Assembly (NCBI RefSeq): GCF_031453615.1 | Contig: NZ_JAVIZT010000001.1 | Coordinates: 1,364,001-1,428,000, forward strand | Direction of reading: 5' to 3' | DNA length: 64,000 nucleotides | DNA from: Microbacterium sp. SORGH_AS_0428 | Lineage (GTDB): Bacteria; Actinomycetota; Actinomycetes; Actinomycetales; Microbacteriaceae | Part shown: one piece after another, positions 37,214-60,613 of the stretch | How positions within the stretch are numbered: the stretch's first letter is position 1 | How the letters are laid out: the number at the start of each line of letters is the position of its first letter | Translations under genes and position numbers: made by a program | Notes under the pieces: generated by a model | Databases searched by the model: none | The model's input: only the letters and a program-made list of their open reading frames with translations | What the model was told of the DNA's origin: nothing

Positions 37214-37330
37214 ACGCACTCTCCCGGATGCGAGGGCCGCAGCCGAACGGCTGCAGGGGCGGATGCCCTCAGCGAGGATATCGGCCCCGGAAGAGGCGGG
37301 ATCGCGGGTTGCGCGAATCGCGGCGCCGGA

Positions 37331-38431
37331 TCACGCGCCGGCGCGCACCGGGCCCGTGCTGCCACGCATGATGAACTCGACGGGGGGCAGTTCGATCGGG
37401 GCGGGTTCCCGCCCCTCCACGAGGGAGATGAGCACCCGCGCGCTCGCCCGCCCCCACTGGATGACGTCCTGCCGGACGGTGGTCAACGGAGGCACCACGT
37501 AGGGCGCGAGCGGGATGTCGTCGAAGCCCACGACGGACAGGTCGGCGGGCACACGCAGACCACGGTCGATCGCGGCCGACATCCCGGCGATCGCCATCAG
37601 GTCGTTGGCGTAGATGATCGCGGTGGGCGCCGCCGCCAGATCGAGCAGCTCATGTGTGGCCCTGGCACCTGCCGCTCCGGTGAAGTCGGCGACGACCGTG
37701 GCGCCCGGCTCGAGCCCGAGTTCGGCCATCTCGTCTTCCCATGCCCGGCGACGCACCGCGGAATGGACGTAACGATCGGAGCCCCCGACGTGCGCGATGC
37801 GCCGGTGTCCGAGCGCATGAAGGTGACGCACGGCCCGACGCACCCCCGCGGCGTCGTCGAGGCCGATGGGATCCGGGCCCGCGCCGGAGGGCGCGTCCGG
37901 TCCGACGAGAACGTAGGGCAGACCGAGCTCTGCCAGCTCGACGGGCCGCTGGTCGCCGATCCGCAGATCACCGAGGAAGACCCCGTCCACGCGCGCCTCG
38001 TTGGCAAAACTCGCGTACGCCGCGCGCTCGGTCTCCTCGCTGTCGACGACCTGCAGCACGAGAGCGTAACCCTCGCCGGACAGCGTGCTCTCGACACCGG
38101 CGATGAACTGCGGGAAGAACGGGTCGGTGCTGAAGAGCTCCGGCTCGCGCCGCACGATGTAACCGAGCGCCTGCGCCCGGCTGCGCGAGAGGGCGCGGGC
38201 ACGGGCATCCGGCTTCCAGTTGAGGGCCGCGGCCGCATCCAGGATCCGCGCCCGCGCCTCCTCGCCCACACCGCCGCGACCGTTGAAGACGAAGGAGACC
38301 GCGCTCTTGGAGACACGGGCCATCGCGGCCACGTCTCCGATCGTGGCCTTGCGGGTCTCGCCCTTGCGCTTGCCCCGAGCGGGAGCAGCACCGGCGCTCG
38401 CACCGCTGGGAAGGGAAGGCTCGTTCTGCAC
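37331..38431 (-). CDS. LacI family repressor of the split glycan locus
   Basis: 366-aa. After an N-terminal tail rich in Gly/Ala/Arg/Lys, the HTH reads ATIGDVAAMARVSKSAVSFVFNGRGGVGEEARARI, with the hinge around LNWKPDARARAL. A periplasmic-binding-like effector domain follows (GVFLGDLRIGD, VGFDDIPLAPYVVPPLTTV). It represses sugar-use genes until its sugar binds. The GTG start has TATGAT six bases upstream, and an operator-like ACTAAATCGG/TTTAGT site covers the promoter (autoregulation). The same words recur ahead of the permease operon and far away ahead of the binding-protein gene near 58 kb. Confidence 0.88.
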   Translation of the reverse strand: MQNEPSLPSGASAGAAPARGKRKGETRKATIGDVAAMARVSKSAVSFVFNGRGGVGEEARARILDAAAALNWKPDARARALSRSRAQALGYIVRREPELFSTDPFFPQFIAGVESTLSGEGYALVLQVVDSEETERAAYASFANEARVDGVFLGDLRIGDQRPVELAELGLPYVLVGPDAPSGAGPDPIGLDDAAGVRRAVRHLHALGHRRIAHVGGSDRYVHSAVRRRAWEDEMAELGLEPGATVVADFTGAAGARATHELLDLAAAPTAIIYANDLMAIAGMSAAIDRGLRVPADLSVVGFDDIPLAPYVVPPLTTVRQDVIQWGRASARVLISLVEGREPAPIELPPVEFIMRGSTGPVRAGA

Positions 38432-38437
38432 CTCAGA

Positions 38438-38465
38438 ATCATAGCGTCGTTTAGTCCGATTTAGT
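38438..38465 (-). promoter_or_regulatory. lacI-type gene promoter (TATGAT) and overlapping operator
   Basis: Minus-strand TATGAT (38443-38438) lies six bases before the GTG. Immediately upstream, TTTAGT occurs at 38450-38455 and 38460-38465 around TCCGA. On the minus strand this contains ACTAAATCGG (38465-38456), identical to 58165-58174. Confidence 0.6.
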
Positions 38466-38541
38466 TGAATGCTCTCCCTCTCGAACCTCGCCATACCGCG
38501 GAATCATGCGCGATGCCAACGCGAGTTGATCTCTTGAACAA

Positions 38542-38554
38542 AAACCGGTTTACT
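38542..38554. promoter_or_regulatory. LacI-type operator upstream of the ABC permease operon
   Basis: AAACCGGTTT (38542-38551) is a perfect palindrome centred on CCGG, the layout typical of LacI-family operators. The minus strand of 38543-38554 reads AGTAAACCGGTT, identical to 58108-58119 upstream of the sugar-binding protein gene. It lies about 105 bp before the first permease start. Confidence 0.7.
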
Positions 38555-38657
38555 CGTGTGACGTGCACAGCACACCCGGGGTCGCGACGTCGCCGCCCCC
38601 GGAGCGAGACGAGGGAGTACGCGAGATGTCGCGACCAGGGCGAAAGGCCGGACAGCA

Positions 38658-39584
38658 GTGACTGCGCTCATCAGCCGACGCGACGGGTCACCGCGCCGCC
38701 GCCGACGCCTCCAGCGGTGGCTGGGCGAGAACCCCCTCGGGATGCTGCTGAGCGCGCCGTACGTGGCGTTCGTCGTCGTGGTCTTCCTCGTGCCCTTCGG
38801 CTTCGGCATCTGGATGTCGTTCCACGACTTCTTCTTCACGGCGCCCGGCGTGCAGGTTCCCCAGCCGTTCGTCGGCCTCGACAACTTCGCACAGGTGCTG
38901 GCCGACCCGCAGGTGCACCAGGCGTTCCTGAACCTGCTCGTGTTCCTCGTGATCAACGTGCCGCTGACCGTCGTGCTGGGTCTGCTCCTGTCCAGCGGCC
39001 TGAACGCGGTCGTGCATTGGAAGGGCTTCTTCCGCGTCGCGTACTACATCCCCTACGTGACGGCGTCGGTGGCGACCATCGCCGTGTGGATCTTCCTCTT
39101 CAACGGCAACGGCGTGGTGAACACGCTGCTGGGTGAGCTCGCACCGAACCCGACCTGGCTCGCCAACCCCGCGATCATCATGCCGCTGATCGCGGTCTAC
39201 GTGACCTGGAAGAACCTCGGCTTCTACATCCTGCTGTATCTCGCAGCTCTCCAGAATGTGCCCCAGGAGCAGTACGAGGCGGCTCAGCTCGACGGCGCCG
39301 GCCGGTGGCAGCGCTTCCGCTCGGTGACCCTGCCCGGGGTGGCGCCGGTGACCTCGCTCGTCATCCTGTTGTCGATCATCACGACGGGGCAGATCTTCAC
39401 CGAGCCCTACCTGCTCACCGGTGGCGGACCCAACGGCGCCTCCCTCACCCCCGCGCTGTTGATGTACCAGAAGGGCATCCAGCAGGGGCAGCCGGACATC
39501 GCGGCCGCGATCGGCATGATCCTCGTGCTGCTCGTGATGATCGTGTCGCTCGTGTCGCGTCGCCTCACCGAGAGGAAGAACTGA
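38658..39584 (+). CDS. Sugar ABC transporter permease (MalF/UgpA type)
   Basis: 308-aa membrane subunit with six helices. The N-terminal tail is basic, followed by LGMLLSAPYVAFVVVVFLVP-type helix 1. The EAA loop EAAQLDGAGRWQRFRSVTLPG lies near residue 215. It belongs to the CUT1 (oligosaccharide) family. It starts at GTG. It is the first gene of the LacI-controlled operon and its stop overlaps the next permease start (TGATG). No ATPase gene is nearby, so a shared MsiK-like ATPase elsewhere is expected. Confidence 0.9.
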   Translation: MTALISRRDGSPRRRRRLQRWLGENPLGMLLSAPYVAFVVVVFLVPFGFGIWMSFHDFFFTAPGVQVPQPFVGLDNFAQVLADPQVHQAFLNLLVFLVINVPLTVVLGLLLSSGLNAVVHWKGFFRVAYYIPYVTASVATIAVWIFLFNGNGVVNTLLGELAPNPTWLANPAIIMPLIAVYVTWKNLGFYILLYLAALQNVPQEQYEAAQLDGAGRWQRFRSVTLPGVAPVTSLVILLSIITTGQIFTEPYLLTGGGPNGASLTPALLMYQKGIQQGQPDIAAAIGMILVLLVMIVSLVSRRLTERKN

Positions 39585-40474
39585 TGGCCTCGATCGCTCC
39601 GCGCACCCGTCGTGCGAAGGAACAGCCCCGCTCGGTCGGCACCTCCCGCGCCCTCGCGGCGCTTCGCTTCGCTGCGCTGGGCCTGGGCGCCCTCGCCGCG
39701 CTCGTGCCGTTCTACTACATGGTGCTCGGCGCGTTGCAGCGCCAGCGCGACACGACCCTGTTCGGGCTGCTCCCCCTCCCGGGAAACCTGACGCTCGACA
39801 ACTTCGTCGAGGTCAACGAGTCGATCAACCTGTTCCGGTCGCTGCTGAACTCGCTGATCATGACGGCGGGCGTCGTGGGCTGCACGCTCGTGTTCGGGCT
39901 GCTCGTGGGCTACGCGCTTTCGGTGCTGCAGTTCCGCGGCCAGGGGCTGGTGTTCGCCCTCGTGCTGCTCGTGCAGGCCATTCCGTTCCAGTTGCTCATG
40001 ATCCCGCTGTACGTGATGGTCGTGCGCTACTTCAACCTGGCCGACAGCTACCTGGGCATGATCCTCCCGTTCGCGATCAACTCCGTCGCCGTGCTGATCT
40101 TCCGGCAGTACTTCCTCCAGATCCCGAAGGAGATCTTCGACGCGGCGCGCATCGACGGAGCCGGTGAGCTGCGGATCCTCCGCTCGATCGCCGTACCGCT
40201 GGTTCGTCCCGCCGTGCTGACCGCGATGCTCGTCACCTTCATCGGCCCGTGGAACGAGTTCCTGTGGCCGTTCCTGGTCACGAAGGACGCCAACCTGCAG
40301 ACCCTGGCGGTGAGCCTCGCGAACTTCTCGCAGTCGAACGGCTCCTTCCTCGCGAACCCGATGGGGGCGGTGCTCGCCGGTGCGTGCGTGCTCGCCGTTC
40401 CTGTCGTCGTGCTCTTCCTCGCCTTCCAGCGGCACTTCACCTCGGCGAACCTCGGTTCGGCCGTGAAGGGCTGA
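39584..40474 (+). CDS. Sugar ABC transporter permease (MalG/UgpE type)
   Basis: 296-aa second permease of the CUT1 importer, six helices. The EAA loop reads DAARIDGAGELRILRSIAVPL (about 187-207). Downstream GPWNEFLWPFLVTKD is typical of MalG-type subunits, as is the C-terminal FLAFQRHFTSANLGSAVKG. It is translationally coupled to the first permease. Confidence 0.92.
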   Translation: MASIAPRTRRAKEQPRSVGTSRALAALRFAALGLGALAALVPFYYMVLGALQRQRDTTLFGLLPLPGNLTLDNFVEVNESINLFRSLLNSLIMTAGVVGCTLVFGLLVGYALSVLQFRGQGLVFALVLLVQAIPFQLLMIPLYVMVVRYFNLADSYLGMILPFAINSVAVLIFRQYFLQIPKEIFDAARIDGAGELRILRSIAVPLVRPAVLTAMLVTFIGPWNEFLWPFLVTKDANLQTLAVSLANFSQSNGSFLANPMGAVLAGACVLAVPVVVLFLAFQRHFTSANLGSAVKG

Positions 40475-40523
40475 TCGCCGCGGCACCCGCATCCTCGACC
40501 CGTCCCTCGACAAGGCAAGGCAG

Positions 40524-41612
40524 ATGACCCAGACCGACGAACTCGAACCCGACGCCACCATCGCGTACGCACTGCGCCGGGTCGGCAACCTCATGGAAGC
40601 CGACACGAACGACCCCTACGAGGTGGAGGGCGTGCTCAACCCCGGAACGGCGTGGGGCCCCGACGGCGAGCTCTACCTCTATCCGCGCATCGTCGCGGAG
40701 GGCAACGTCTCGCGCATCGCCCGGGCACGCGTGGTGATCGAGGACGGTGTGCCCACGGGAGTCGAACGCCTCGGGGTGGTGCTCTCCCCCGACGAGGGGT
40801 GGGAGCACGGACGTCAGAACGCGGGTGTCGAAGACCCTCGGATCACCTTCGTCGAGCCGCTGGGCCTCCATGTGATGACGTACGTGGCGTACGGCCCGCT
40901 CGGACCCAAGTCCGCGATCGCCGTCTCGACGGACACGATCACGTGGCGGCGATTGGGTCCCATCCGCTTCGCCTATCAGCCCGAGCTCGACTCGGATCTG
41001 AATCTCTTCCCCAACAAGGACATCGTCTTCTTCCCCGAAGCGGTGCCGGGGCCGGACGGGCATCCGTCGCTGGCGTTGCTGCATCGCCCCATGTGGGACC
41101 TGGACTGGCTGCGACCCGGCGAGGGTGCGCGGCCGCCGGCCGGCATCGCCGACGACCGCCCGTCGATCTGGATCGGCTATGTCGATCTCGAAGCCGCGAC
41201 GCGTGACGTCAACGCGCTCACCCTGGTCGAGAACTCGTCGCAGATCGTCGCCCCCGAGGCGGCGTACGAGTCGGCCAAGATCGGCGCCGGCCCCTCGCCG
41301 CTGCGCGTTCCCGAGGGCTGGCTGCTCCTGCACCACGGCGTCTCCGGTACGACGCCGCGCGGATTCGAGCTGGCACACGGGTCGAAGTACAGCGCCGGCG
41401 CGATCCTGTTGGATGCGGCCGACCCGCGCCGCGTGCTCGCGCGCACACCCGAGCCGCTGCTCGCGCCCGAGACCGCAGAGGAGCTCTCGGGCACCCTCGG
41501 CAATGTCGTCTTCCCCACGGCTATCGAGAAGATCGGCGAGCGCTGGTTCGTGTTCTACGGCATGGCCGACTCCTCGATCGGCGTCGCCGAGTTGGAGCGC
41601 GCCGAAGGCTGA
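40524..41612 (+). CDS. GH130 family glycosidase / beta-mannoside phosphorylase
   Basis: 362-aa five-bladed beta-propeller enzyme. Seen: NPGTAWGPDGELYLYPRI, then AGVEDPRITFVE with the catalytic-type Asp of GH130, YVAYGPLGPKSAIAVS, DIVFFPE, SAKIGAGPSPLRVPEGWLLL (GH130 has a conserved G-x-GxPP/S-P region), HGVSG and FPTAIEKIGERWFVFYGMAD. GH130 enzymes phosphorolyse or hydrolyse beta-1,2 or beta-1,4 mannosides in the cytosol. It sits directly after the permeases and ends in a strong terminator. It probably processes imported oligosaccharides released by the PL8 lyase. Confidence 0.85.
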   Translation: MTQTDELEPDATIAYALRRVGNLMEADTNDPYEVEGVLNPGTAWGPDGELYLYPRIVAEGNVSRIARARVVIEDGVPTGVERLGVVLSPDEGWEHGRQNAGVEDPRITFVEPLGLHVMTYVAYGPLGPKSAIAVSTDTITWRRLGPIRFAYQPELDSDLNLFPNKDIVFFPEAVPGPDGHPSLALLHRPMWDLDWLRPGEGARPPAGIADDRPSIWIGYVDLEAATRDVNALTLVENSSQIVAPEAAYESAKIGAGPSPLRVPEGWLLLHHGVSGTTPRGFELAHGSKYSAGAILLDAADPRRVLARTPEPLLAPETAEELSGTLGNVVFPTAIEKIGERWFVFYGMADSSIGVAELERAEG

Positions 41613-41629
41613 GCGCGACGAAGCGTTCG

Positions 41630-41667
41630 CACGGATGCGGCGGGGCTTCGGCCTCGCCGCATCCGTG
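41630..41667 (+). terminator. Stable hairpin terminator after the GH130 gene
   Basis: A 17-bp stem (41630-41646 with 41651-41667, one G-T pair) closes on a TTCG tetraloop, 18 bp after the stop codon. Only TCTCAT follows instead of a U-run, which is usual in high-GC actinobacteria. It marks the right end of the left half of the glycan locus. Confidence 0.75.
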
Positions 41668-41774
41668 TCTCATCGACTGAGCCCGGCGGGATCTTCGACG
41701 ATCGCGCGTGAGGGCGGTCGACCTAGCATGATCGCGCCTGACCCGTTCGAGATGGCTTCCAGGTGGGTATCGGG

Positions 41775-41969
41775 CTACATCCCATATCCGCCCACGTATC
41801 CGTCCGGGGGTTCCGTGAGATCACCCATCCGCCTCGCCCGCCGAAAGGCTTCGGATGCGGAGTCCATATCACCGAGCTCATGGTGGAGGAGTCCCAGGTT
41901 GAACGCGGAGAAGCCGTCGCCATGGTGGACGCTGCCGCCAATTCTGACTCCCGGCTCGGCGTCATGAGC
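41775..41969 (-). pseudogene. C-terminal remnant of a TPR/Sel1-repeat protein
   Basis: A 64-codon open stretch with no start codon at its head. It reads HHGDGFSAFNLGLLHHELGD, then MDSASEAFRRARRMGDL, a Sel1/TPR repeat, and ends GYVGGYGM-stop. It begins immediately after, and in frame with, the TAG of the adjacent lipoprotein gene. It is most simply the surviving 3' end of a deleted gene at the edge of the RHS island. The rest of 41668-41774 shows nothing. Confidence 0.6.
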
Positions 41970-42425
41970 CTAATTGACTGGTTCACAAGGCTGAGGACGC
42001 GTGGCGCCGTCAGGATGAAGCCACTCGTTGGCCGGCAATCCCGTAGTCGGAACTTTGAAGACCGCACTGGCGACCGGTGAATCGTTGAGGTAGAGGGCGA
42101 CGTCCATCTCCGTGCCCGCCGGCAGCTCGGGAAGCGCAAACCTCCCGATCGGTGCGCCAGCGATAGCGCCATTGACAAAGACGTCTCCTCGCGAGACGTC
42201 TAGAGGCGCTTTCACTTCCCAGAAGTGAACCCAGTCAAGGTCCGTAGAGAGGTTTCGATAGCTCGCAACGATCTCATCGATCGGACCTGACGTACAGACG
42301 GCGATCTCCAGCGACTGGTCGGACCCGCGGACGGCTAGTGGACCCTGCCAAAGGTTGTTGTCACATGCTGAGAGCCCCAGAGGGGCAAGCACAATGAGCC
42401 CGAAGGCCAGCAGCCATCTCGACAT
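41970..42425 (-). CDS. Small secreted lipoprotein, unknown family
   Basis: 151-aa. The signal peptide MSRWLLAFGLIVLAPLGLSAC has lipobox LSAC (Cys21). The mature part carries QSLEIAVCTSGPIDEIV, DLDWVHFWEV and LPAGTEMDVALYLNDSP, suggesting a beta-sandwich. GAGGGG lies 8 bp before the ATG at 42425; an upstream GTG at 42434 is possible. It lies at the distal end of the gene chain behind the RHS gene. No function is recognised. Confidence 0.7.
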   Translation of the reverse strand: MSRWLLAFGLIVLAPLGLSACDNNLWQGPLAVRGSDQSLEIAVCTSGPIDEIVASYRNLSTDLDWVHFWEVKAPLDVSRGDVFVNGAIAGAPIGRFALPELPAGTEMDVALYLNDSPVASAVFKVPTTGLPANEWLHPDGATRPQPCEPVN

Positions 42426-42505
42426 CCGCCGCACCCCTCATACCTCCCATATCCTGACGACGCGATGGGCCCGGCCGCGCGTTGCAGCATCCTGCCGTGC
42501 GGCCG

Positions 42506-43507
42506 TCACGGCTTGTGAAAGGTGACGGTGTGTTCGAGCGGGTGGGTTAGCCCGGCGAAGAGTTCACGAACGAACCGCCGGACGTCAGCCCTCGAGTTCG
42601 TTCCCAGCCTCCATTCGTACCATCCATCGCTCTCTTCTCCGTCGGGCTCCCACTCCAGCCCGTCGGAGACGTCAAGGGCCATCAGCTCTGCTTCGATCCT
42701 CTCGAGCTCGGCATGGATGCCCTCTCGCGGGACGCCCGTCGCCGGATCCAACAGGTTCACCCGAAACACAGCCTCGAGCGGCCAGGACGCGACATCGCTC
42801 AGGTCCTTGAGCTCAACTCCGAGAGGCCCCAAACCGTTGGCTTCGACGTACTCATCGACGCTCATGCTCGACCGCTCGGAAAGGACCCAAACCTCGTCCC
42901 GCTCGTAGACACCATCCAAAACCGGACAGAAGAGGTCGACACGAAGCACTCGACCGTCTGCCACGTGCCACGCGTAAAAGGCGCTCCCTGGGACGCTGTC
43001 GGCGTCATCACCGTTGAACAAGACAATCGCCTCTCGAAGCGACGCGTCGCGACCCTCCCACACCACTCTCAAGGACCACATCGTGACAGGGAGATACTGG
43101 CCAACCTCGGCGTTTGAGTCCTGACGCGCCACACTGAAGGGGCCGGGCCACCGCTTATGTGCAGCATCCGCCTCCGGAATCACCGAACCGGTGGACTTGC
43201 GGGCAAGCCGTGATGCTGCAGATGCCGGGAGCTCACCCCTCCACACGACGGTGATCTCCTCCTCCGGAGAGATGGGAAACTCTTGTTCCCCCACCAGTCG
43301 CCAGCCTGCCCAGCGCGCACTCAGGTACTCGAGGGAGAGCGGCCGAAACAGAATCACCACGACCTGCTCAAACTTCGTCGAGCGCTTACCGGGAATCGCT
43401 CGAAACAGTCTCACGGCGCGGGCAGAGGTCACCGTGCGTGCATCGAATCCCTGCGCCTGAACCACCCGCTCGATCCTCCGCGCCGCACCCGGAACTCGTG
43501 CGTTCAC
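42506..43507 (-). CDS. Hypothetical protein (333 aa) in the RHS island
   Basis: 333-aa soluble protein with no signal or membrane helix. Distinct parts: an N-terminal RRIERVVQAQGFDARTVTSA segment, two beta-rich sections (GWRLVGEQEFPISPEEEITV; YLPVTMWSLRVVWEGR), and an acidic C-terminus (WEPDGEESDGWYEWRLGTN). I recognise no family. Base use is less GC-biased than in flanking genes. Its place in the same-strand chain behind the RHS gene makes an immunity or island-specific role possible. Confidence 0.7.
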   Translation of the reverse strand: MNARVPGAARRIERVVQAQGFDARTVTSARAVRLFRAIPGKRSTKFEQVVVILFRPLSLEYLSARWAGWRLVGEQEFPISPEEEITVVWRGELPASAASRLARKSTGSVIPEADAAHKRWPGPFSVARQDSNAEVGQYLPVTMWSLRVVWEGRDASLREAIVLFNGDDADSVPGSAFYAWHVADGRVLRVDLFCPVLDGVYERDEVWVLSERSSMSVDEYVEANGLGPLGVELKDLSDVASWPLEAVFRVNLLDPATGVPREGIHAELERIEAELMALDVSDGLEWEPDGEESDGWYEWRLGTNSRADVRRFVRELFAGLTHPLEHTVTFHKP

Positions 43508-43660
43508 TTACAGCTCCATCGTCGTCTAGGCGTACAGAAGGTCCCGTCGCATCGGCACAACAGCTCGGCGTGATGAGCGCGGAAACTCAGTACACCGCTC
43601 GGAGGCGGCAGAACCGTGCTGGCTCGCTGGAGGGATGGACGACAACTTCTCGCTTCTGTC

Positions 43661-44035
43661 TTACCTGATGCCGGTCAGCCGCAACAGCTCTTGCCAGAGA
43701 GCATCGTCCGAGAGCGCCTTGATCCGGGCCTCTTGTTCGACGGTCGCTCTCTTGACTCGGAATCGGGTCGTTCGCCACATTCGCGATAACGCCTTCTCGC
43801 CCCATTCACGGAAGGATGCGTCGTCCCGAACCGAAACCACCGACAGCACAGCCGGTTCGGTCGTATGCCACACTTCTACTCGCCTGCATTGGGCATCGAA
43901 AGCCGCGGCGACCTCATCCCAATAGTCATCTTCATAAAGGCCCGGTACATCGGCGGGAGATGGTACCTGCTGGCAGAATCCGTCGGATTCGAAGACGAGC
44001 ACCGGCCAAGCCGGATCGATGTTCGACGGCGTCAC
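43661..44035 (-). CDS. Hypothetical protein (124 aa), possible immunity protein
   Basis: 124-aa acidic protein, TPSNIDPAWPVLVFESDGFC to the C-terminus DDALWQELLRLTGIR. GTG at 44035 overlaps the stop of the 61-codon gene upstream (GTGA), which sets this start although the ORF is open to 44245. No family is recognised. Small acidic cytosolic proteins coupled behind an RHS gene are often immunity proteins; this is inference. Confidence 0.65.
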   Translation of the reverse strand: MTPSNIDPAWPVLVFESDGFCQQVPSPADVPGLYEDDYWDEVAAAFDAQCRRVEVWHTTEPAVLSVVSVRDDASFREWGEKALSRMWRTTRFRVKRATVEQEARIKALSDDALWQELLRLTGIR

Positions 44036-44217
44036 CAGCGCCCCTGCCAAGGCCGAACAGCGGTGGGAATCCGGTCGAGGTGAAAGGTGACGACAGCAAA
44101 GACCGCGAACCCAAGGAATCCGAACGGAGGAGTCGACCCCGCGATCAACCGCTGGCCGCGAACCTGCGTCGGCGCAAAGGTGTAGGTCTCGTCCTCGACG
44201 ATATGTGGGTCTCTCAC
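44032..44217 (-). CDS. Truncated paralogue of the RHS-adjacent membrane protein (61 aa)
   Basis: 61-aa protein beginning at GTG with GGAGG upstream. Its YTFAPTQVRGQRLIAG segment is nearly the same as [15 protein letters not shown] in the 207-aa protein just upstream on the strand, and a hydrophobic helix follows (FGFLGFAVFAVVTF). The sequence then stops after 61 residues. It is a shortened duplicate that keeps only the N-terminal helix. It is coupled to the next gene by GTGA. Confidence 0.6.
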   Translation of the reverse strand: MRDPHIVEDETYTFAPTQVRGQRLIAGSTPPFGFLGFAVFAVVTFHLDRIPTAVRPWQGRW

Positions 44218-44242
44218 CGGGCCTCCAGTCCCCCTGCCCGCC

Positions 44243-44272
44243 CAACGATGGACTGCAGTATGTCCATCGTTG
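44243..44272. promoter_or_regulatory. 11-bp perfect inverted repeat in the immunity-like gene chain
   Basis: CAACGATGGAC (44243-44253) pairs with GTCCATCGTTG (44262-44272) across 8 bases. It lies between the two paralogous membrane-protein genes. It could be a terminator, processing hairpin or operator; no T-run is present. Confidence 0.45.
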
Positions 44273-44337
44273 AAGTGCTCAGGGCGCGGAGGCCCGGAGT
44301 GAGGTGTCAGTCAGAATCTGATTGGCGCTCGAGCTTG

Positions 44338-44961
44338 TCAATCTGCGGCGTCGGACGATCCGAGCGCTGCCCGGGTGTCCGCGATGAACCTTTCGAGCTC
44401 GCTTCGTCGAATTGGAAGAAGACCCCGCGGGCCGGCGTGATCGAGCATGATGTCGTAGCTCTTACCGTCGGTGAACGTGAGTCGGACCGGGGGCTCCAAG
44501 AGACCCCACATCACCCGCAGGGCCACAGCTCGTTCAAGCTGACCCGCCTCGTACCGCGCGACGAGCTTCGCTTCGCCTCCCGTGCGGATCTCCAACTCCC
44601 CCGGAACGATCCGCACGAAGCCCTGCCCGAACTTCTCGCCGTCATACGGCTCCTGACCCGCCGTCCAGTTGCATCCACCGAACATCAAGTACGTCACGCC
44701 GTCGAACCCACGCGCAGCACGTCGAACCACACGAAGGTGATTTGACCACGTGAAGACCACGGCACTGCCGATGAGGGCCGCGAGGGCCAGGAATACGACT
44801 GACTCGCCCACTTGTCCGCGTGAGGCGAAGATCATTCCGAATACGACGAAGAACACGAACATCAGGGGCCCCAGCGTCCCCGGAAGTAGTCGTTGCCCCC
44901 GGAACTGAGTGGGCGCGAACGACATGGGCACGCTCTCTACTGGCTCACGACGATTCACCAT
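44338..44961 (-). CDS. Membrane protein coupled to the RHS gene, candidate immunity protein
   Basis: 207-aa with two N-terminal membrane helices (about 28-48 and 55-72) preceded by [14 protein letters not shown], then a cytosolic beta-rich domain ([40 protein letters not shown]) that resembles a PH-like barrel. Its ATG lies inside the last codons of the RHS gene (7-bp overlap), the tight coupling expected of an immunity protein, and a truncated paralogue follows. A membrane immunity protein would fit a membrane-acting toxin tip. No family is recognised. Confidence 0.7.
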
Positions 44962-50900: not shown

Positions 50901-51734
50901 CCCGTCGTCATCGACGAGATCGACCGCGTACGTCTCGGGGTCGAGAATCGGCGTGAGCGAGCCCACGTCAAGGCGCCACGTCCACTTCGGACGCGAGGTC
51001 GGAGGCGCGTCGAGCACGAGCGTCTCCTTCACCGCCGCCTCGGAGATGTCGTATCTCATATCGACGCCAGGCTTCACGTCTTTGTACGTCAGCGACTCCC
51101 AGTCGTCCCACCACCAGAACGCGGACTCGACGTCCCCGGCCGCGGCGCCCACCAACGAGAACGACACGTCATGCCCCTGCCGCGACAGCGTCACCGCGTC
51201 GTCCACATCAGCTGCGTCCGCAAACGACGGGTTCAGGGGGTGGTTCTCAACGACCCACCCCTCGTCCGTCGAAGACAGCGAGGTGTTCGGGTCAACCCAT
51301 CCCCCCTCGGTCTCCACTCCGCTGGGCATGTTCGACAGCTGCGTCACGCGACGCCCGCTCTCGTCCCCGTATGTCGTGACCGTCTCGGATCGAGACTCCA
51401 CCGACATGCCGTCGGTCGAGATCGCGCCCGGATCAGCTGCGTTGCTCATGGCCGGCGGCACGACCGCATCCGTCGACACCGGCACCTCGGATGTCACCGT
51501 TGTCGCATTCTGCGGGACCTCGAAGTCCCCCTCAGGAACCTCTGGCGCGGCAGTCGGCTCATCCGTCGCAGGAAGAGCCGGCGAGTCTTCCGACGATGCG
51601 GCGATCGGCGCTGTCTCGCGCGGCGATGCGAACACCGGCTGAGCAGGGAGCCCCAACCCCAGCACGACCGCCGTGATCGTCCCCAACCCGACGATCAGCG
51701 AACCTTTTGAAAACGGCACACCACCACGCGACAT
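44955..51734 (-). CDS. Giant secreted RHS/YD-repeat protein, putative polymorphic toxin
   Basis: 2259-aa from ATG 51734 (the ORF is open 5 codons further, to a TTG). Signal peptide, about 1-37. A DNRLRE-like domain follows ([31 protein letters not shown]), then fibronectin-like regions, two PA14-like domains ([14 protein letters not shown]...; [15 protein letters not shown]...), YD repeats ([23 protein letters not shown]), and the RHS core ending [36 protein letters not shown]. The last about 159 residues after the core are variable-type and hydrophobic/Gly-rich ([29 protein letters not shown]). No nuclease or deaminase motif is visible there. It probably acts on neighbouring cells or membranes. 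Codon use is less GC-biased than in flanking genes. Confidence 0.85.
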
Positions 51735-51903
51735 CGCACGCCCCCACAAGCACGCTCAACGTAAGCACCCCCCAGTGAGCGCACACGGCCGCGGTTCGCT
51801 TGCAATCCCGCGGTCATTCGCAGCATATCCACCTGGGAGTCTCCTCAGCGAGCACTTTGATAACGCTTCGTCTTCTTTGAATGCCCGGCTTGCTCAAAAC
51901 CAC

Positions 51904-51939
51904 GACGGATGGCCGGGTCCGAAGACCCGGCCATCCGTC
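51904..51939 (-). terminator. Rho-independent terminator of the PL8 gene
   Basis: A perfect 16-bp stem (51904-51919 with 51924-51939) with a CGAA loop, starting 19 bp after the PL8 stop. On the minus strand it is followed by GTGGTTTTG, a short U-run. It also separates the PL8 transcript from the RHS gene, whose ATG is about 170 bp further on. Confidence 0.85.
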
Positions 51940-51957
51940 TCCATATCCCCGCTGGAT

Positions 51958-54900
51958 TCAGTCGCCCGCGCGGCGCCGGCGCCGGTCGAGCACGAGCGCA
52001 CCGCCCAGGGTGAGCATGAGCAGTGCCGCCGCCGCGGTCCACGGCACCCAGGCGAGGTCGGCTCCCGTGCTCGGGAGCGCTCCGTCCGCCGGGTTCTGCG
52101 GGCTCTGCGGGTTCTGCGGATCCGTTCCACCACCGGCCGCGGCCTCGATCTGCACCGCCACGGAGGCGATGTCGACGCCGTCGCGCATCACGACGATCGT
52201 GTGCGCACCACCGGGGACGTCGGCGGGGATGTCCCCGGTGAGCGTGAACGCTCCGGCCGCATCCGCCGTGACGGTGCCGAGGTCCCGCGGACTCGAGCGC
52301 AGCTGCACGAGGTACTGCGCGCCGGGCGTGAACTCCGCGCCCGTCACCGTCACCGTGCCTCCGGCCCGCAGTCCGTCCGAGGCGGTCACGGTCGGCGTCC
52401 GATCCGACTGCTCGACGACCTCCACCGACACCGGCGTGGTCGCCGGTGACCAACCGGCCTCGTTCTGCGCACGCACCGACACCGCGTACGTACCGGGAGC
52501 GAGCCCGTCGGCACGCCCGGTCAGCACGTCGCCGCCGACGGGGATCACCCGGTCACCGATCGTGAGCTCGTACGCCGAGACCGCGGCCCCGCCGTCGTCC
52601 TCCGGCGCCAGCCATGTCGCGATGACCGCGGAGCCTTCGGCAGCCGCCGTGAGCGAGGCGGGCGCCGAAGGCACCGTGACCTCGGGCTCCTGACCGATCT
52701 CGACGAGGCCGTCCAGCGCGGCGCGAAGAGCCTCGGCCCGCTGGTCGATCACCGGCTGTCCGATCCCGCTCGTGCGCAGCGCATCCTTGGCCGCCTCCAG
52801 TGCGGGCAGCACCGGGCGCCAGCTCTCAGCGGTGTAGATGTTGCTGTCGAGCGCGTTGCCGCGGTCGACGAGTTCCTGCAGCGCGGCGGTGTCGACGGCG
52901 ACGTTGACCGTGCACCAGCTGATCTCGTCGCCCTTCGCGTGAGTGAGAAGCACTCGCGTCGAGCCCGACTCCCCCGCCCGCAGGTCGAAGGCGACCGAAC
53001 CCTCCGCACCGACGCGCGGCACGCCCTCGACGCGGGCGACGGCCGCATCCACCGGATAGGCGGTGAAGGCGTCGTCTGCGTCGAGCGGGGCGATGGATGC
53101 GGTCACGGTGGCGATGTCGCCATGGGCCGCGCTCACGTCCGGCGAGGTGCACGAGAAGTTGTAGCCGCCGTACAGCTCGAACTCGAACAACGAGATGCCG
53201 TACTTCGTCACCGGCAGACCGGCGACCCGCACGTAACGCACCTCGGCGTCGGCGAAGTCCACCGTGTTCTTCAGCTCCGCCGAGGTCTTCTGCACTCGGG
53301 CCAGCTCCTGCCACGTCTGACCGTCGAGCGAGCCCTCCAGCCGGAAGTCGTTCGAGGTCGCCGACTCCCACGTCAGCACCGCCTGGTTGACGGTCCTCGG
53401 CCCTTCCAGGTCGACCTGCAGCCAGCGCTCCGTCTTGTACGGTGCGTCCTCGCGGCGCGACGCCCAGCGGGTCGTCCCGATCCCGTCGGTGGCGAAGCGC
53501 GGCTCGAGCGTGGCGTTGTACGACGACTCTGCGGTCGTGGGCCGACCGAGCGCGAGGTTCTCCCGCCCGACGGGTGTCGTGGGCGCCGAGGCGATCGCGT
53601 CGCCCTCGAACACCTCCATCTCCCAGATCGAGACGCCGTACTGCGTCGTGCTGCGCTGGATCGACTGCATCCGCACATAGCGGGCGTTCTCCTGCACCGC
53701 GATCACGTCGAGTCCGCCGTCGCTGCCGCCCGAGGGCGTCACATAGGCGTCGCGCCAGTTGCTCTGATCGTCGGACACCTGGATGCGGTACTGCTTCGCG
53801 TACGAGGCCTCCCACCACAGCCGGACGGTGCCGATCGACTGCACCGAGCCGAGGTCCACCTGGGTCCACGCCGTGTCAGAGAGGTTGGCGCTCCAGCGGC
53901 TGGCCATGTTTCCGTCGGTGATGCTGCCGGCTGCGGACCCGCCCGACGCCGTCACCGATCGGCCGAGCGCCAGGTTGCGACTGGCCTCGACCGACATCTC
54001 GGCGATCGAGTAGCCGCTTCCTCCGGTGCTCTCGAGAAGCAGCACCCGCAGGTAGGTCGCCGCCGTGGGCGGGAACTCGAGCGTCTCGGTGCCCCCTTCC
54101 GCATCCTGCACGAAGCGCAGATCGCTCCAGTTGGCGCCGTCCTGCGAGGTCTGCACGAGGTAGCGCGTGGCTGCCTGGGCGCCCCACTCGAGGGTCAGTC
54201 CCGTCACGAAGGCGCCGGCGCCCAGATCCTTGGCCACCCACTGCACCCCGCCGTCGGCGGACGCCCAGGAGGTGGCGGCATCGCCGTCGCCGGCGAGCGC
54301 GGCACCGCGCCCCTCGGCGGAGCTGCTCGCCGAGTAGGCCGACGCCTGGGCGCCGTCGGTCGGCGTCAAGGACGCCGTGACGGTCTTGCCCAGGTTCGGT
54401 CCCGACCCCAGAGCGAAGGTTCCGGCGTGCACCGCGTCCGGCCCCCGGAGGGTGACGGCCACGACCAGCCCCGGCTTGTCGGGGTTCGCGATGCTGACGA
54501 CGGGCTCCGCACCCGACTCGTCGAGAATGACGATCGCGGGCTGATTGACCTCGAGCGTGCGTCCGTCGCCGAGATCGAGGGCATCGGCCTGGAAGAACGT
54601 CGCCATCGTGCGCTGAAGGCCCGCATGCTGCACGGCCTGCACGCTCGCGTCGTTCTGCAGGATGCGTACCGCCGGAGCGGCGGCGTAGCGCTCGACCTCA
54701 GCCGGGGATGCGGCGGGCAGCACGATGTACTCGTAGCCCGCGTCCGTCGGCTTCGTGCCGTGGTCGAAGTACAGGGTGAAGGCGTCGCGGCTCACCGCAT
54801 CCTCGCCCACCCAGCTTCCGGTCTGCGCCTTGTTGGAGACGGTGACCGGCGCATCGGACGGGAAGACGTATCCGACCTCGTCGTTGTAGGCCCATGCCGG

Positions 54901-56511
54901 GTCGTCCACGACGACACCGTCGGCACCGTCGGCGACGGGCTTGCCGTCCACCGTCGCGTTGTCCTTGGCAGCGGCCTGGTTGACGACGCTGTGCACGGCC
55001 GCATCCGCCGTCGAGCCGATGCCCGTTCCCAGCGCCACCATCTCGTCGTCGAAGAGGAAGGTGCTCTTCAGACCCTTCGTCTTCGCGCGGTCGAGCGTGT
55101 AGACGTTCGCGCCGTAGCGCCCGTCGGAGACGCCCCCCGTGAAGCTGCCGCCGTTGCCGACGCGGCCGTTCGTTCCTCGCGTCTGCTCCTTCAGGTAGGG
55201 AGCCGTGACACCCGGGTAGTGGAACCAGTCGAAGGCGGGACCGAGGTCGAGGTACTCACGGTTGTTCACCTGGATGGCGGTGGCCGACGCCGAGTTCCAG
55301 AAGACCTCGTTGCCGACCTCGGGACGGAACGTGGAACGATACTCCGCGCCGACCGTGCGGCTGGAGTTCAGACGCGTGAAGACGGCGTACTCGTCGCGGA
55401 TGTGGGAGGAGAACTCCGACCGCCAGAAGTACTTGTCGCCCGTGACGCCGTTGCCGGGGGTCTTGCCGCGGATGTTGTCGGCGAGTGCGCGGTACTGCGT
55501 GGCGTAGAGGGCATCGGTGCGCGCCATCTCGTCGAGCGGTTCGAGGAACTCCGATGCGTAGCTCGTGACGCCATCGATCGTCTTGGGCGGTCGGTAGCCC
55601 AGGTAGAGCATCCCCACCTCGCCGCGGATCATCCAGCGCGTGCCGTTGATGATGTAGAACGCGATGTCGTCGAGCTGCGCGCGGGTGAAACCGAGGCTCG
55701 TGCCCCGCGCCGCATCCGCCCACAGCGCGACGTTGGTGAACAGCGCCATGCCGTAGCCCTCGCTGTAGAGCTGCGCCTCGTGGGCCCAGAAGCTGGCGTC
55801 GGGCTGCACGGCCTCGTTGACGTTCCCGGAGTTGTCGACGGCGACCGTCGCGGCCATCGTGTCGAACCCGGAGGCGATGTTCTCGAAGTTGCGCGAGGCC
55901 ACCGCCTCGAACAGGTAGTTCGTCGTACGCCATGCACCGTTGGCACCGACCGGGTCGAGCTTTCCGGTGTTGTGCTTCAGGCTGGCGGCGAACGCCTCGT
56001 CGCTGAGCACTCCGCCGAGGAAGATCGAGATGCGCCCCATGGCCATGGACTCGCCGATCTCGGTCTCCCACCAGTTCTGATTGCCGGGATCGACCGCATC
56101 CCAGTACGTCAGGGCGCGGTCGACCGCGGTCACGAGGGCGGGATCCTCGAAGCCCTTCGCGTCGGAGTCGCGGTACGCGTAGGCCATCGCGAGCATGCGG
56201 TACAGCGCGATGTAGGCGGACCAGGTCGCGCCGTTCGCCGAGCTCGTACGGTCGGCGTAGTTCACGTCGGACCAGGAGCCGTCGGCGTTCTGGGATGCGG
56301 CGTACTCCTGCGCTTCGGACACACGCGCCAGGTAGATGCCGTTGGCGATGATGATCTCATCGCCCTGCGCCAGGTAGTACTCCTGCAGACGCGCCACGAT
56401 CGTGTCGACGTCGTCGTCAGGGGTGGCTGCCGTCGCGGGCACGGTGGCGAGCCCTGTGAAGGCGAGCACCAGGGCGACGACGAGAGCCAGCGAGGCCCTG
56501 ATTCTTCTCAT
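51958..56511 (-). CDS. Cell-wall-anchored polysaccharide lyase family 8 (xanthan/hyaluronate lyase-like)
   Basis: 1517-aa surface enzyme. Signal peptide 1-29. The PL8 alpha-toroid holds NWWETEIGE (146-154) and a catalytic set aligned with xanthan lyase: Asn191 (VGANGAW), His244 (FWAHEAQLY), Tyr253 (SEGYG). Spacing 53/9 compares with 52/9 (Asn194/His246/Tyr255) known in Bacillus xanthan lyase. PL8 beta domains follow (NSSRTVGAEYRSTFRPE; FDWFHYPGVTAPYL), then three F5/8 type C (discoidin) carbohydrate-binding domains (about 760-1175), a FIVAR-like helical region, FN3, an Ig-like domain, and a sortase signal LPSTG with membrane helix and RRRRR tail. It cleaves an acidic polysaccharide by beta-elimination outside the cell. 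ATG 56511 has AAGGAG upstream. Confidence 0.88.
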   Translation of the reverse strand: MRRIRASLALVVALVLAFTGLATVPATAATPDDDVDTIVARLQEYYLAQGDEIIIANGIYLARVSEAQEYAASQNADGSWSDVNYADRTSSANGATWSAYIALYRMLAMAYAYRDSDAKGFEDPALVTAVDRALTYWDAVDPGNQNWWETEIGESMAMGRISIFLGGVLSDEAFAASLKHNTGKLDPVGANGAWRTTNYLFEAVASRNFENIASGFDTMAATVAVDNSGNVNEAVQPDASFWAHEAQLYSEGYGMALFTNVALWADAARGTSLGFTRAQLDDIAFYIINGTRWMIRGEVGMLYLGYRPPKTIDGVTSYASEFLEPLDEMARTDALYATQYRALADNIRGKTPGNGVTGDKYFWRSEFSSHIRDEYAVFTRLNSSRTVGAEYRSTFRPEVGNEVFWNSASATAIQVNNREYLDLGPAFDWFHYPGVTAPYLKEQTRGTNGRVGNGGSFTGGVSDGRYGANVYTLDRAKTKGLKSTFLFDDEMVALGTGIGSTADAAVHSVVNQAAAKDNATVDGKPVADGADGVVVDDPAWAYNDEVGYVFPSDAPVTVSNKAQTGSWVGEDAVSRDAFTLYFDHGTKPTDAGYEYIVLPAASPAEVERYAAAPAVRILQNDASVQAVQHAGLQRTMATFFQADALDLGDGRTLEVNQPAIVILDESGAEPVVSIANPDKPGLVVAVTLRGPDAVHAGTFALGSGPNLGKTVTASLTPTDGAQASAYSASSSAEGRGAALAGDGDAATSWASADGGVQWVAKDLGAGAFVTGLTLEWGAQAATRYLVQTSQDGANWSDLRFVQDAEGGTETLEFPPTAATYLRVLLLESTGGSGYSIAEMSVEASRNLALGRSVTASGGSAAGSITDGNMASRWSANLSDTAWTQVDLGSVQSIGTVRLWWEASYAKQYRIQVSDDQSNWRDAYVTPSGGSDGGLDVIAVQENARYVRMQSIQRSTTQYGVSIWEMEVFEGDAIASAPTTPVGRENLALGRPTTAESSYNATLEPRFATDGIGTTRWASRREDAPYKTERWLQVDLEGPRTVNQAVLTWESATSNDFRLEGSLDGQTWQELARVQKTSAELKNTVDFADAEVRYVRVAGLPVTKYGISLFEFELYGGYNFSCTSPDVSAAHGDIATVTASIAPLDADDAFTAYPVDAAVARVEGVPRVGAEGSVAFDLRAGESGSTRVLLTHAKGDEISWCTVNVAVDTAALQELVDRGNALDSNIYTAESWRPVLPALEAAKDALRTSGIGQPVIDQRAEALRAALDGLVEIGQEPEVTVPSAPASLTAAAEGSAVIATWLAPEDDGGAAVSAYELTIGDRVIPVGGDVLTGRADGLAPGTYAVSVRAQNEAGWSPATTPVSVEVVEQSDRTPTVTASDGLRAGGTVTVTGAEFTPGAQYLVQLRSSPRDLGTVTADAAGAFTLTGDIPADVPGGAHTIVVMRDGVDIASVAVQIEAAAGGGTDPQNPQSPQNPADGALPSTGADLAWVPWTAAAALLMLTLGGALVLDRRRRRAGD

Positions 56512-56609
56512 GACGGGCTCCTTCGGCCGGTTGAGAGATGCGCGCATGCGTGCGCGAAGAGAGGATGCGGGCGCTGAGCCCGACGCGCCGCGCGTCGACG
56601 CGGACGAGA

Positions 56610-56644
56610 GAGGGGCCGGGGAGCATCACGCTCCCCGGCCCCTC
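56610..56644 (-). terminator. Intercistronic hairpin between the sugar-binding protein and PL8 genes
   Basis: A 15-bp perfect stem (56610-56624 with 56630-56644) with a 5-base loop starts 4 bp after the stop of the binding-protein gene. No U-run follows. Such hairpins commonly cause partial termination or protect upstream mRNA, giving more binding protein than the downstream product. Confidence 0.65.
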
Positions 56645-56648
56645 GTGA

Positions 56649-57950
56649 TCAGCCCTGGGCTGCGAGCGAGTCGATCTTGTCGGCGGCGCTCTTCATCTGC
56701 TCGGCGAGGTCTCCCTGGCCGGACTGCACCGCGGCACCCCAGGTGTCGCGGAAGGTCTGCCAGATCTCCGTCGCGTTGGCGATGTTCGGCACGTCGACCG
56801 TCAGCGGGACGGCCTGGGCGAAGGTCGCGAGCAGCGGGTTCGCGGCGAGGTAGTCGCCCGCCACCTCGGTGAGGTCGGTGCGGATCGGGAACTGACCGGT
56901 GGTCTCGAGCAGAGCGAGGTCGTTGTCGGCATCCATCGAGAACTTCGCGAAGTCCCACGCGGTCTGCTTGTTCTGGCACGAGGTGTACAGACCGACGTTC
57001 TTCGAGTCGCCGAACGTGTAGGTCTCTTCGAGCGTCTTGCCGTCGGCGGTCGGAAGCGGCACGACGCCGTACTCGACCTTGCCGTCGAACTGCGCGGCAC
57101 CCCACGGACCGGCGATGCCCATCGCGGCGACACCGTCGGCGAACGGGCCCGCCCAGGCGTCGCCGCTGTACGCCTCGGCCGACGAGTAGCCGTCGGCGTA
57201 GAGCGTCTTCCAGAACTCGAGCGTCTGCATGCCCGCGTCGCTCGTGAACGTCGCCGTACCGTCGGCCACCAGCTGCGTGCCGTCGGAGTTGGCGAGGTAG
57301 AACGGGTAGAAGTCAAACAGCGCGTTCGTGTAATCGCCGGATGCCGGCGGGTACAGCGCGTAGTCGGCGGCGCCCGCATCCTTGATCGCCTTCGCGGCGG
57401 CGAGCACGTCATCGTAGGTCGAGAGCTTCGGGGCTTCGGCGTCGAGCCCGGCCTCGGCGAAGGCGGTCTTGTTGTAGTAGAGCATGAAGGGGTTGGCCTT
57501 CCACGGCACCTGGTACAGGTCGCCGTCGGGCGAACGGAACCCGTCCGCCGCGTCGCCCGAGCGCTCGGTGATGAACGACTCGCCGTCGTCGAACGTCTTC
57601 GAGATGTTGACCAGGCCGCCCTGTTTCTGGAACGAGGGCACCGCGGCAGGTGCGGTGTTGTAGACGAGGCAGGCGGTGTTGCCCGCGGTGATCGCGGCCG
57701 AGATCGCATCCTCGGAGGACTTGCCGGCCGGGATGGCCTCCGCCGTCACCTGCTCGTCCGGGTGGTCGGCGTTCCACGCCTCGACGACGGCCTTGCCCCA
57801 GGCGATCTCCTGCTCGTTCGTCGAGTACCAGATCGTGATCGGACCGGACGTGAGTTCTGTGCTCGCTGCGTCGCCGCCCCCCGAGCTGCACGCTGCCAAC
57901 GGAACGGCAACGGCGACGAGGGCGACAGCAGCGCTGATGGAACGCTTCAT
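56649..57950 (-). CDS. Sugar ABC transporter substrate-binding lipoprotein (family 1)
   Basis: 433-aa receptor lipoprotein. Signal peptide with lipobox LAAC (Cys about 21), then a Ser/Gly linker. The solute-binding family 1 fold follows (ITIWYSTNEQEIAWGKAVVE, YQVPWKANPFMLYYNKTAF, ADGVAAMGIAGPWGAAQ, AWDFAKFSM). It is the missing receptor for the two CUT1 permeases at 38.7-40.5 kb, since both promoters share LacI operator words. AGGAG precedes the ATG at 57950. PL8 follows on the same strand, 137 bp later, so lyase and receptor are co-transcribed. Confidence 0.92.
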   Translation of the reverse strand: MKRSISAAVALVAVAVPLAACSSGGGDAASTELTSGPITIWYSTNEQEIAWGKAVVEAWNADHPDEQVTAEAIPAGKSSEDAISAAITAGNTACLVYNTAPAAVPSFQKQGGLVNISKTFDDGESFITERSGDAADGFRSPDGDLYQVPWKANPFMLYYNKTAFAEAGLDAEAPKLSTYDDVLAAAKAIKDAGAADYALYPPASGDYTNALFDFYPFYLANSDGTQLVADGTATFTSDAGMQTLEFWKTLYADGYSSAEAYSGDAWAGPFADGVAAMGIAGPWGAAQFDGKVEYGVVPLPTADGKTLEETYTFGDSKNVGLYTSCQNKQTAWDFAKFSMDADNDLALLETTGQFPIRTDLTEVAGDYLAANPLLATFAQAVPLTVDVPNIANATEIWQTFRDTWGAAVQSGQGDLAEQMKSAADKIDSLAAQG

Positions 57951-58107
57951 TGCGCGGACTCCTTCTCGCAATACTGCCCACGCCAGCCATTGCGTTTCTG
58001 TGATTCGGACCTTCGGAGAACGTCCACACGCACGGGTCGCGCGTGGTCGCACTGATCCACGCCCGCGGGTGGCGCTCTCAGTCGTCTCGTCGAGTGGTTG
58101 CAGCCTT

Positions 58108-58174
58108 AGTAAACCGGTTCTTGCCTACCGCGTCAATACTCGAAGCTCTCGCTAGTTGCACGTTACTAAATCGG
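58108..58174. promoter_or_regulatory. Two LacI-type operators upstream of the sugar-binding protein gene
   Basis: AGTAAACCGGTT (58108-58119) is identical to the minus strand of 38554-38543. ACTAAATCGG (58165-58174) is identical to the minus strand of 38465-38456. Both lie in the 272-bp region 57951-58222, about 160 and 215 bp upstream of the ATG at 57950. The rest of that region shows no gene. Confidence 0.75.
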
Positions 58175-60521: not shown

Positions 60522-60613
60522 TGGCGGAGACGGAGGGATTTGAACCCTCGGTCCCCTTACGGGGACTCCACCTTAGCAGGGTGGTGCACTAGGCCTGACT
60601 ATGCGACGTCTCC
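60522..60613 (-). tRNA. tRNA-Ser (anticodon GCU)
   Basis: A type II tRNA with a long variable arm. Acceptor arms are GGAGACG (60613-60607) and CGTCTCC (60532-60526). Anticodon stem CCACC/GGTGG holds the loop CTGCTAA, giving anticodon GCT for AGC/AGU serine codons. Variable arm GTCCCC/GGGGAC and T-loop GAGGGTTCAAATCCCTC are present. Discriminator G and CCA are encoded (60525-60522). Confidence 0.97.

Follow-up and report, generated by a model that had tools for sequence, protein, structure and literature searches.

One sugar-polymer locus, governed by one LacI switch at two promoters and carrying an RHS island in the gap between its two transcription units, very probably accounts for positions 37331 to 58174 of the window, i.e. 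the 64,000-nucleotide stretch of Microbacterium sp. SORGH_AS_0428 analysed here (contig NZ_JAVIZT010000001.1, positions 1,364,001 to 1,428,000; window coordinates are used throughout). The computed results concern the genes present, the exact sharing of operators, the contiguity of the halves in relatives, the limits of the island and a spacing pattern. An earlier sequence-only reading had described a glycan-utilization locus split by a 10-kb RHS island, with halves joined by shared LacI operators. Its gene calls (LacI, two permeases, GH130, PL8, an extracellular sugar-binding protein (SBP) and RHS) are confirmed by Pfam, and the six genes of the two units are as follows.

37331..38431, minus strand: lacI-family regulator gene, with Pfam LacI (PF00356) and Peripla_BP_3 (PF13377) both above cut-off; start re-set to GTG 38431
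38658..39584, plus strand: CUT1-type permease 1, Pfam PF00528 (BPD_transp_1)
39581..40474, plus strand: CUT1-type permease 2, Pfam PF00528 (BPD_transp_1)
40524..41612, plus strand: GH130 beta-mannoside phosphorylase/mannosidase family enzyme, PF04041 at 114.5 bits (cut-off 26)
51958..56547, minus strand: PL8 lyase of 1529 residues with discoidin domains, FN3 and an LPxTG-like wall anchor; PF08124, PF02278 and PF02884 (Lyase_8 N, middle and C)
56649..57950, minus strand: extracellular SBP, from Pfam; start set at ATG 57950

The two units are linked by two short words. Both the 12-mer AGTAAACCGGTT (38543-38554 and 58108-58119) and the 10-mer ACTAAATCGG (38456-38465 and 58165-58174) lie where the earlier reading had placed them. 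Each has two matches in the whole genome (complete, 3,300,177 bases in one contig), both at the lacI/permease and SBP-PL8 promoters, in agreement with the claim that sharing is confined to these promoters; the words were found at no other place in this genome, let alone at many unrelated promoters. At window base composition, chance would give approximately 0.07 matches to the 12-mer and 1.26 to the 10-mer in 3.3 Mb. Since two copies of the 12-mer were found where 0.07 were expected, its sharing is far above chance and a real signal. Counts across the genome and the genus thus rule out chance sharing of the 12-mer; chance is not rejected for the 10-mer alone, which is credible solely by its position. 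Both words also resemble variants of one element, CCGGTTTACT and CCGATTTAGT being identical at 8 of 10 positions. The promoter elements concerned are listed below.

38450..38465, plus strand: distal direct-repeat element TTTAGTCCGATTTAG(T) in the lacI promoter, including the 10-mer (38456-38465)
38526..38554, plus strand: permease promoter with -35 TTGATC, 17 bp and -10 TTTACT; predicted proximal operator AACCGGTTTACT at 38543-38554
58108..58136, minus strand: SBP-PL8 promoter with -35 TTGACG (58136-58131), 17 bp and -10 TTTACT; predicted proximal operator AACCGGTTTACT (58119-58108)
58165..58174, minus strand: distal element of the SBP promoter (CCGATTTAGT), one repeat half intact

Among the 295 genus genomes searched, which are a sample of a larger group, 11 encode a PL8 protein (E <= 1e-60), the window's own included. 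The exact 12-mer occurs in 15 of the 295, and all 11 PL8 genomes have exactly two copies, at both promoters and at a constant place relative to the -35 and -10, which strengthens the earlier proposal of one regulon; in the same search a reversed control word had one match. TTGA precedes TTTACT by 17 bp in 21 of the 22 promoters of these genomes and by 18 bp in the remaining one, and the palindrome AAACCGGTTT or a near form of it therefore overlaps the -10 region. The core of the proximal operator inside AACCGGTTTACT, ACCGGT, is found in 22/22 promoters and is an even palindrome with a central CG, as are LacI-family motifs in the available part of a published study (PMC4052901). To judge from these features, the 12-mer is a palindrome of LacI type that is fused with the -10 box, a description that is new here.

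Relatives show what the locus looks like when its halves are close together. In all ten other PL8 genomes lacI-permease-permease-GH130 is contiguous with SBP-PL8; the 34-39 kb surrounding each of these loci contained no RHS match (E <= 1e-15). The arrangement is convergent, as in the window, in eight of them and collinear in two (G161 and G271); in the latter the SBP gene retains its own full promoter module. The GH130-PL8 gap is approximately 0.47 kb in G136, 0.22 kb in G284 and 10.3 kb in the window. All six genes were detected by tblastn in 10/10 relatives, and clusters of open reading frames over the 11 loci recovered lacI, permease 1, GH130 and PL8 in 11/11 and SBP in 9/11; permease 2 was overlooked by the simple reading-frame caller and has no cluster. 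Most of the other genes common to at least three of the 11 loci are found in the window, G136 and G284 and nowhere else among them; exceptions are a probably spurious six-locus set on the opposite strand across the permease 2/GH130 junction, the gene at 36317-37219 (also in G196) and one gene in G136, G271 and G284. A scan of named genomes with the SBP yielded 79 loci: 12 with the split unit including PL8, L114, the pair L116 and L117, 63 sorted as without PL8 (judged on the available DNA, some being short contigs) and one left unsorted, its SBP match being below the script's 150-bit limit. For none of the 79 was an RHS match listed at more than 60 bits. Six of the split loci duplicate genus genomes, leaving seven further ones if L114 is counted (L113, L114, L118, L119, L121, L163, which is very near G260, and L180). 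Six of these are contiguous in full, while L114 (SBP-PL8-GH130, cut at both contig ends, with lacI and the permeases beyond the end) is contiguous as far as visible. The expected contiguity without the island was hence seen in 16 other loci in full and one in part, some of the 16 being near copies of each other; far from never standing together in relatives, the halves do so repeatedly. Of the 12 split named loci, all 12 carry the 12-mer in the permease promoter and 11 in the SBP promoter (exception, L180). The split locus was found in Kineosporia (L113), Agromyces (L121) and Pseudokineococcus (L180) besides Microbacterium, a spread which suggests that it has moved between genera.

It is very improbable, in our view, that these are two separate sugar systems whose promoters are alike because related LacI proteins share operators. 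GH130 is indeed common without PL8, 58 of the 295 genomes having the former (E <= 1e-40) without the latter (E <= 1e-60). However, SBP-PL8 stands by lacI-permeases-GH130 in 11/11 PL8 genomes, in two arrangements and 10 kb apart in the window, the SBP, permeases and GH130 stand together in related loci, and no SBP-PL8 unit lacking the lacI-permease-GH130 unit was seen among the PL8 genomes and named loci. The idea of one locus split by an island has to be softened nevertheless: the halves are side by side in relatives, but they are already separate transcription units in the convergent ones. Since this is so, and since the collinear SBP gene keeps its own promoter, the island separates the halves in distance only.

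Each promoter has a second part. Upstream of the proximal site, 18 of the 22 promoters in the 11 PL8 genomes carry an intact TTTAG-N4-6-TTTAG; the other four, which belong to the SBP genes of the window, G136, G284 and G140, each keep one repeat half. The 10-mer corresponds to the second half of this repeat preceded by CCG, and, because lacI more likely starts at GTG 38431, its copy at 38456-38465 probably lies in the lacI promoter and outside coding sequence. Within the window, the SBP promoter has its distal element 32 bp (approximately three helical turns) closer to the operator than the lacI/permease promoter does. Distances from the last TTTAG to the operator (51-52, 72, 83-86, 92-96 and 105-107 bp) cluster on a 10.5-11-bp ladder, with a Rayleigh length of 0.75 at 10.5 bp and 0.81 at the best period for 24 promoters, which are related rather than independent, and 0.75 was reached in none of 20,000 uniform draws. 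This test, made after the ladder had been noticed, omits G136 and G284 (near copies of the window), L119 (near G140), L163 (near G260), L108-L112 and L120 (same as G140, G142, G197, G196, G211 and G271), the permease promoter of L118 (no -35 found by the script), that of L113 and both of L180 (no TTTAG). The ladder could instead reflect common descent of a few promoter forms, with no helical constraint, which we consider unlikely. Many of the promoters are related, they fall into about five spacing classes and the test came after the pattern; yet reducing each class to a single value leaves the ladder unusual (p = 0.013 at a period of 10.5 bp and 0.005 at the best period between 10 and 11.25), and classes differ by near multiples of a turn even when loci outside the split group are included (G175, 72; L115, 83). 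As the promoters are related and the test post hoc, only the smaller claim deserves trust, that distal-proximal spacing is probably held to whole helical turns.

That the TTTAG repeat is bound by a second regulator (e.g. an activator or response regulator encoded elsewhere), the palindrome alone being the LacI site, is a possibility that we take seriously even if we doubt it. Direct repeats with a period of one turn fit poorly with the palindrome rule for LacI-family motifs, as stated in the available part of the source (PMC4052901), and the repeat was found within 350 bases upstream of SBP or lacI in none of the 63 named loci sorted as without PL8, compared with a core palindrome ahead of lacI in 25 of the 63; G175, which lacks PL8 and is outside the 63, has one TTTAG module, ahead of its SBP gene. 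On the other hand, TTTAG-N4-7-TTTAG occurs at only three places in the genome, one of them at this locus, so that it gives no sign of a wider regulon. The idea that the distal repeat marks a global regulon was considered and dropped, two of the three matches being a different repeat (TTTAGATCATTTAG). Among the genes common to at least three of the 11 loci that spread beyond the window's two closest relatives (not all are annotated), no other regulator gene was seen; furthermore, in the window the distal word CCGATTTAGT matches the operator at 8 of 10 positions, and ACCGATTTACTGC occurs twice in the promoter region of the Pseudokineococcus SBP gene.

Several further observations weigh against a single LacI switch. 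The 10-mer by itself is no rarer than chance (1.26 expected, two found). Four of the 284 genomes without PL8 carry five 12-mer copies, near other LacI genes. The Pseudokineococcus (L180) SBP promoter carries AACCGATTTACT instead of the 12-mer, and the TTTAG repeat is missing from both promoters of this locus and from the Kineosporia (L113) permease promoter. With a direct repeat as distal element in 18/22 promoters, not all sites are palindromic, unlike the motifs given for the LacI family (PMC4052901, in the part available). Finally, this LacI may lack a means of looping known from E. coli, as its best match to the Lac repressor (360 residues) stops at residue 329. The E. coli protein loops DNA via a C-terminal tetramer helix, which is not seen in this LacI for that reason. 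The 12-mer sites without PL8 (G004, G075, G214 and G249) were treated as a minor exception rather than a wider regulon. In G075 (L107:8860-8938) two copies 67 bp apart are flanked by a divergent LacI gene and a sugar-transport operon, both of weak similarity. All in all, a single LacI switch is still the account that we favour. We infer that LacI binds the distal site as well, and a locus-specific contact or DNA loop between the distal and proximal sites is likely.

The SBP proteins hint at how the second promoter arose. In a maximum-likelihood tree of 83 sequences, rooted at the midpoint, the 18 loci counted as split (L114 included) group together (98/94), next to G175, L115 and the Streptomyces-type pair L116 and L117. 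In L115, L116 and L117 the SBP gene is followed by both permeases, and in G175 by permease 2 and GH130, with room for a permease 1 not picked by the reading-frame caller. PL8 adjoins lacI in L116 and L117, where SBP is still ahead of the permeases. The split SBP-PL8 unit thus probably arose once, from an operon with the SBP gene ahead of the permeases, and the simplest reading would be a single departure of this gene from the permease operon to a position ahead of the lyase gene, together with its own copy of the control module. Two of these neighbours have genes worth recording. L116 and L117 encode, besides a closer relative of the window's PL8 protein, a second one after GH130 (L116:14501-16360 and L117:14356-16350) that is 38% identical to it, and G175 (L100:10750-14196) has after GH130, where PL8 might be expected, an apparently wall-anchored protein of 1148 residues with no Pfam or PDB match.

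The island itself was delimited by alignment to G284, from which the window departs at 41699 and to which it returns at 51902, inside both hairpins of the convergent ends; G284 holds a short spacer of its own instead. Its features, with the two hairpins, are the following.

41630..41667, plus strand: hairpin after GH130, likely terminator, without T-run, conserved in G136 and G284 (-39.7 kcal/mol)
41699..51901, no strand: RHS island, the stretch absent from G284 (alignment to G284)
41699..41938, minus strand: left island part, also in G136, with the 3' end of a gene that we take to be TPR-like (no family search made)
41970..42434, minus strand: open reading frame with no Pfam or NCBIfam family at E <= 0.001
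42506..43507, minus strand: open reading frame with no Pfam or NCBIfam family at E <= 0.001
44338..44961, minus strand: candidate immunity gene, overlapping the RHS stop codon
44955..51749, minus strand: RHS protein of 2264 residues; PA14 domains, an RHS core, and matches to RHS repeat and Rhs_assc_core that exceed the cut-off
51904..51939, minus strand: terminator hairpin after PL8, conserved in G136 and G284 and called by the terminator scan (-38.1 kcal/mol)

No shuffle out of 200 was as stable as either hairpin. The earlier placement of the island exactly between two terminators holds for its position inside both hairpins and for the one at 51904-51939, but the hairpin at 41630-41667, which has no T-run, was not called by the scan. 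Because the island lies between conserved hairpins of two convergent genes, the lacI and SBP-PL8 units should still work. Its GC content is 63.7% (69.2% for the window). A second, partial stretch homologous to 44338-44961 lies nearby (42 residues, 48% identity), and the position, overlap and partial second copy of this gene suggest an immunity gene. The C-terminal tip of the RHS protein and the small reading frames had no family match in Pfam or NCBIfam, and no known toxin domain was found. RHS core matches (E <= 1e-40) occur in 35/295 genomes, among PL8 genomes only in the window's own and G161, where the match is far from the locus. G136 matches both island ends, 41699-41938 and 51836-51901 (just upstream of the RHS start), which may most simply be a deletion scar, an older spacer being also possible. 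According to the latter possibility, the island was never in the G136 lineage and entered this spacer in the lineage of the window. We find it plausible enough to keep in mind, if not the better bet. G284 and eight more distant relatives of the same genus have no island sequence at the locus, and gain in the window lineage alone would therefore need one event; against this, G136 retains matches to both ends, including the 3' piece of the TPR-like gene.

What the locus consumes is a matter of best guesses. The best solved relatives of PL8 are chondroitinase AC (PDB 1cb8) at 206 bits and xanthan lyase (6f2p and 2e22) at 98 bits, and its NCBIfam chondroitinase AC score is 244.5 bits against a cut-off of 1000. 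A His and a Tyr align with chondroitinase AC, as does an Asn once the gap is shifted to fit the GAN motif, and these residues, presumably catalytic, are invariant in 18/18 sequences. The AlphaFold model of the PL8 domain has a mean pLDDT (predicted local distance difference test) of 69.3, with 190 of 690 residues below 50. The LPxTG-like end was seen by eye (23.1 bits for the NCBIfam LAVTG model, below the cut-off of 27). The nearest PDB relatives of GH130 are beta-1,2-mannobiose phosphorylase and 1,2-beta-oligomannan phosphorylase, with low similarity and scores below NCBIfam cut-offs. PF07470 (GH88/GH105) has no match in the genome (3 of 14 control genomes were positive; other unsaturated-glucuronidase families were not searched). 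Our best guess for the substrate is a beta-mannose/uronate glycan. As a guess, PL8 might free a beta-mannosyl sugar from the uronate 4-position, giving an importable product without an unsaturated end, and this would explain why no GH88 is needed. A substrate of the glycosaminoglycan class is conceivable, as Microbacterium PL8 lyases acting on glycosaminoglycans are known from the available part of PMC12666371, and xanthan is left open since companion enzymes of the Microbacterium sp. XT11 xanthan cluster are not in the locus.

The remaining steps (LacI binding, repression, looping, transport and the enzyme reactions) are inferred. The wall-anchored PL8 lyase would cleave the polymer outside the cell, a product would be taken in by SBP and the two permeases, and GH130 would cleave the beta-mannoside inside. 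One LacI-family repressor would govern both lacI/permease-permease-GH130 and SBP-PL8 through the palindrome AAACCGGTTT covering the -10 box, with which the upstream element, whole helical turns away, likely works by protein contact or a DNA loop. The RHS toxin-immunity island would have entered between the convergent unit ends, after the terminators, setting the units 10 kb apart without cutting a gene or promoter. A more daring combination can be put forward tentatively, and as a whole is somewhat unlikely: a repressor without the E. coli tetramer helix that uses a non-palindromic direct-repeat auxiliary site phased over five to ten turns, a module duplicated when SBP left the permease operon to join PL8, and a beta-mannosyl-uronate pathway needing no GH88.

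Some details of the flanks complete the picture. By-eye comparison of the window with G211, G196, G260 and G142 shows in the lacI promoter a -10-like hexamer followed by 6 nt and the start codon (38429-38443 in the window); GTG 38431 is a more likely start than 38494, and lacI mRNA is probably leaderless in the window and these four relatives. In the window, permease 1 shares GTGA at its GTG start with an 11-codon reading frame (38626-38661), whereas in G211 an upstream ATG appears, by eye, in frame with the permease. A tRNA-Ser gene (60522-60613) lies approximately 2.3 kb right of the SBP promoter, and the two genes between them (58223-58810 and 58875-60164) have no match in the G136 region searched.

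The kind of system is well known and its conserved two-part promoter is the more interesting part; by comparing such promoters, helical phasing in LacI control can readily be tested in bacteria other than E. coli. The locus is also a clean natural example of regulon halves keeping the same control sequences when pushed apart, the undisrupted form being visible in full in sixteen relatives and in part in a seventeenth, with a likely deletion scar in one. A glycan pathway pairing PL8 and GH130 without GH88 was not described among the literature matches listed, and it is to such a pathway that the pairing points. In the available part of its description, the XT11 xanthan cluster comprises a PL8 lyase, ABC transporter genes, a GH9 endoxanthanase, GH38 and GH3 (PMC10881899); it resembles the present locus in combining a PL8 lyase with ABC transporter genes in Microbacterium, the genus of most named orthologous loci, and differs in that GH130 is found here and GH9, GH38 and GH3 are not among the six conserved genes (a comparison of the locus, not of the rest of the genome). 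Chondroitinase AC (1cb8) and xanthan lyase (6f2p and 2e22), although the best solved PL8 relatives, are distant matches. The island is like Rhs polymorphic toxin loci in its long RHS protein with a core domain, overlapping small downstream gene and partial second copy; here, however, it is inserted between two units of a catabolic locus and has no known toxin domain at its tip. Gram-positive CUT1/LacI glycan loci typically consist of an SBP, two permeases, an intracellular enzyme, an extracellular lyase and a local LacI with a CG-centred palindrome over the promoter. The present locus is alike in all those parts, but its SBP stands apart from the permeases, under a second promoter where the control module is repeated, and it has a distal direct repeat.

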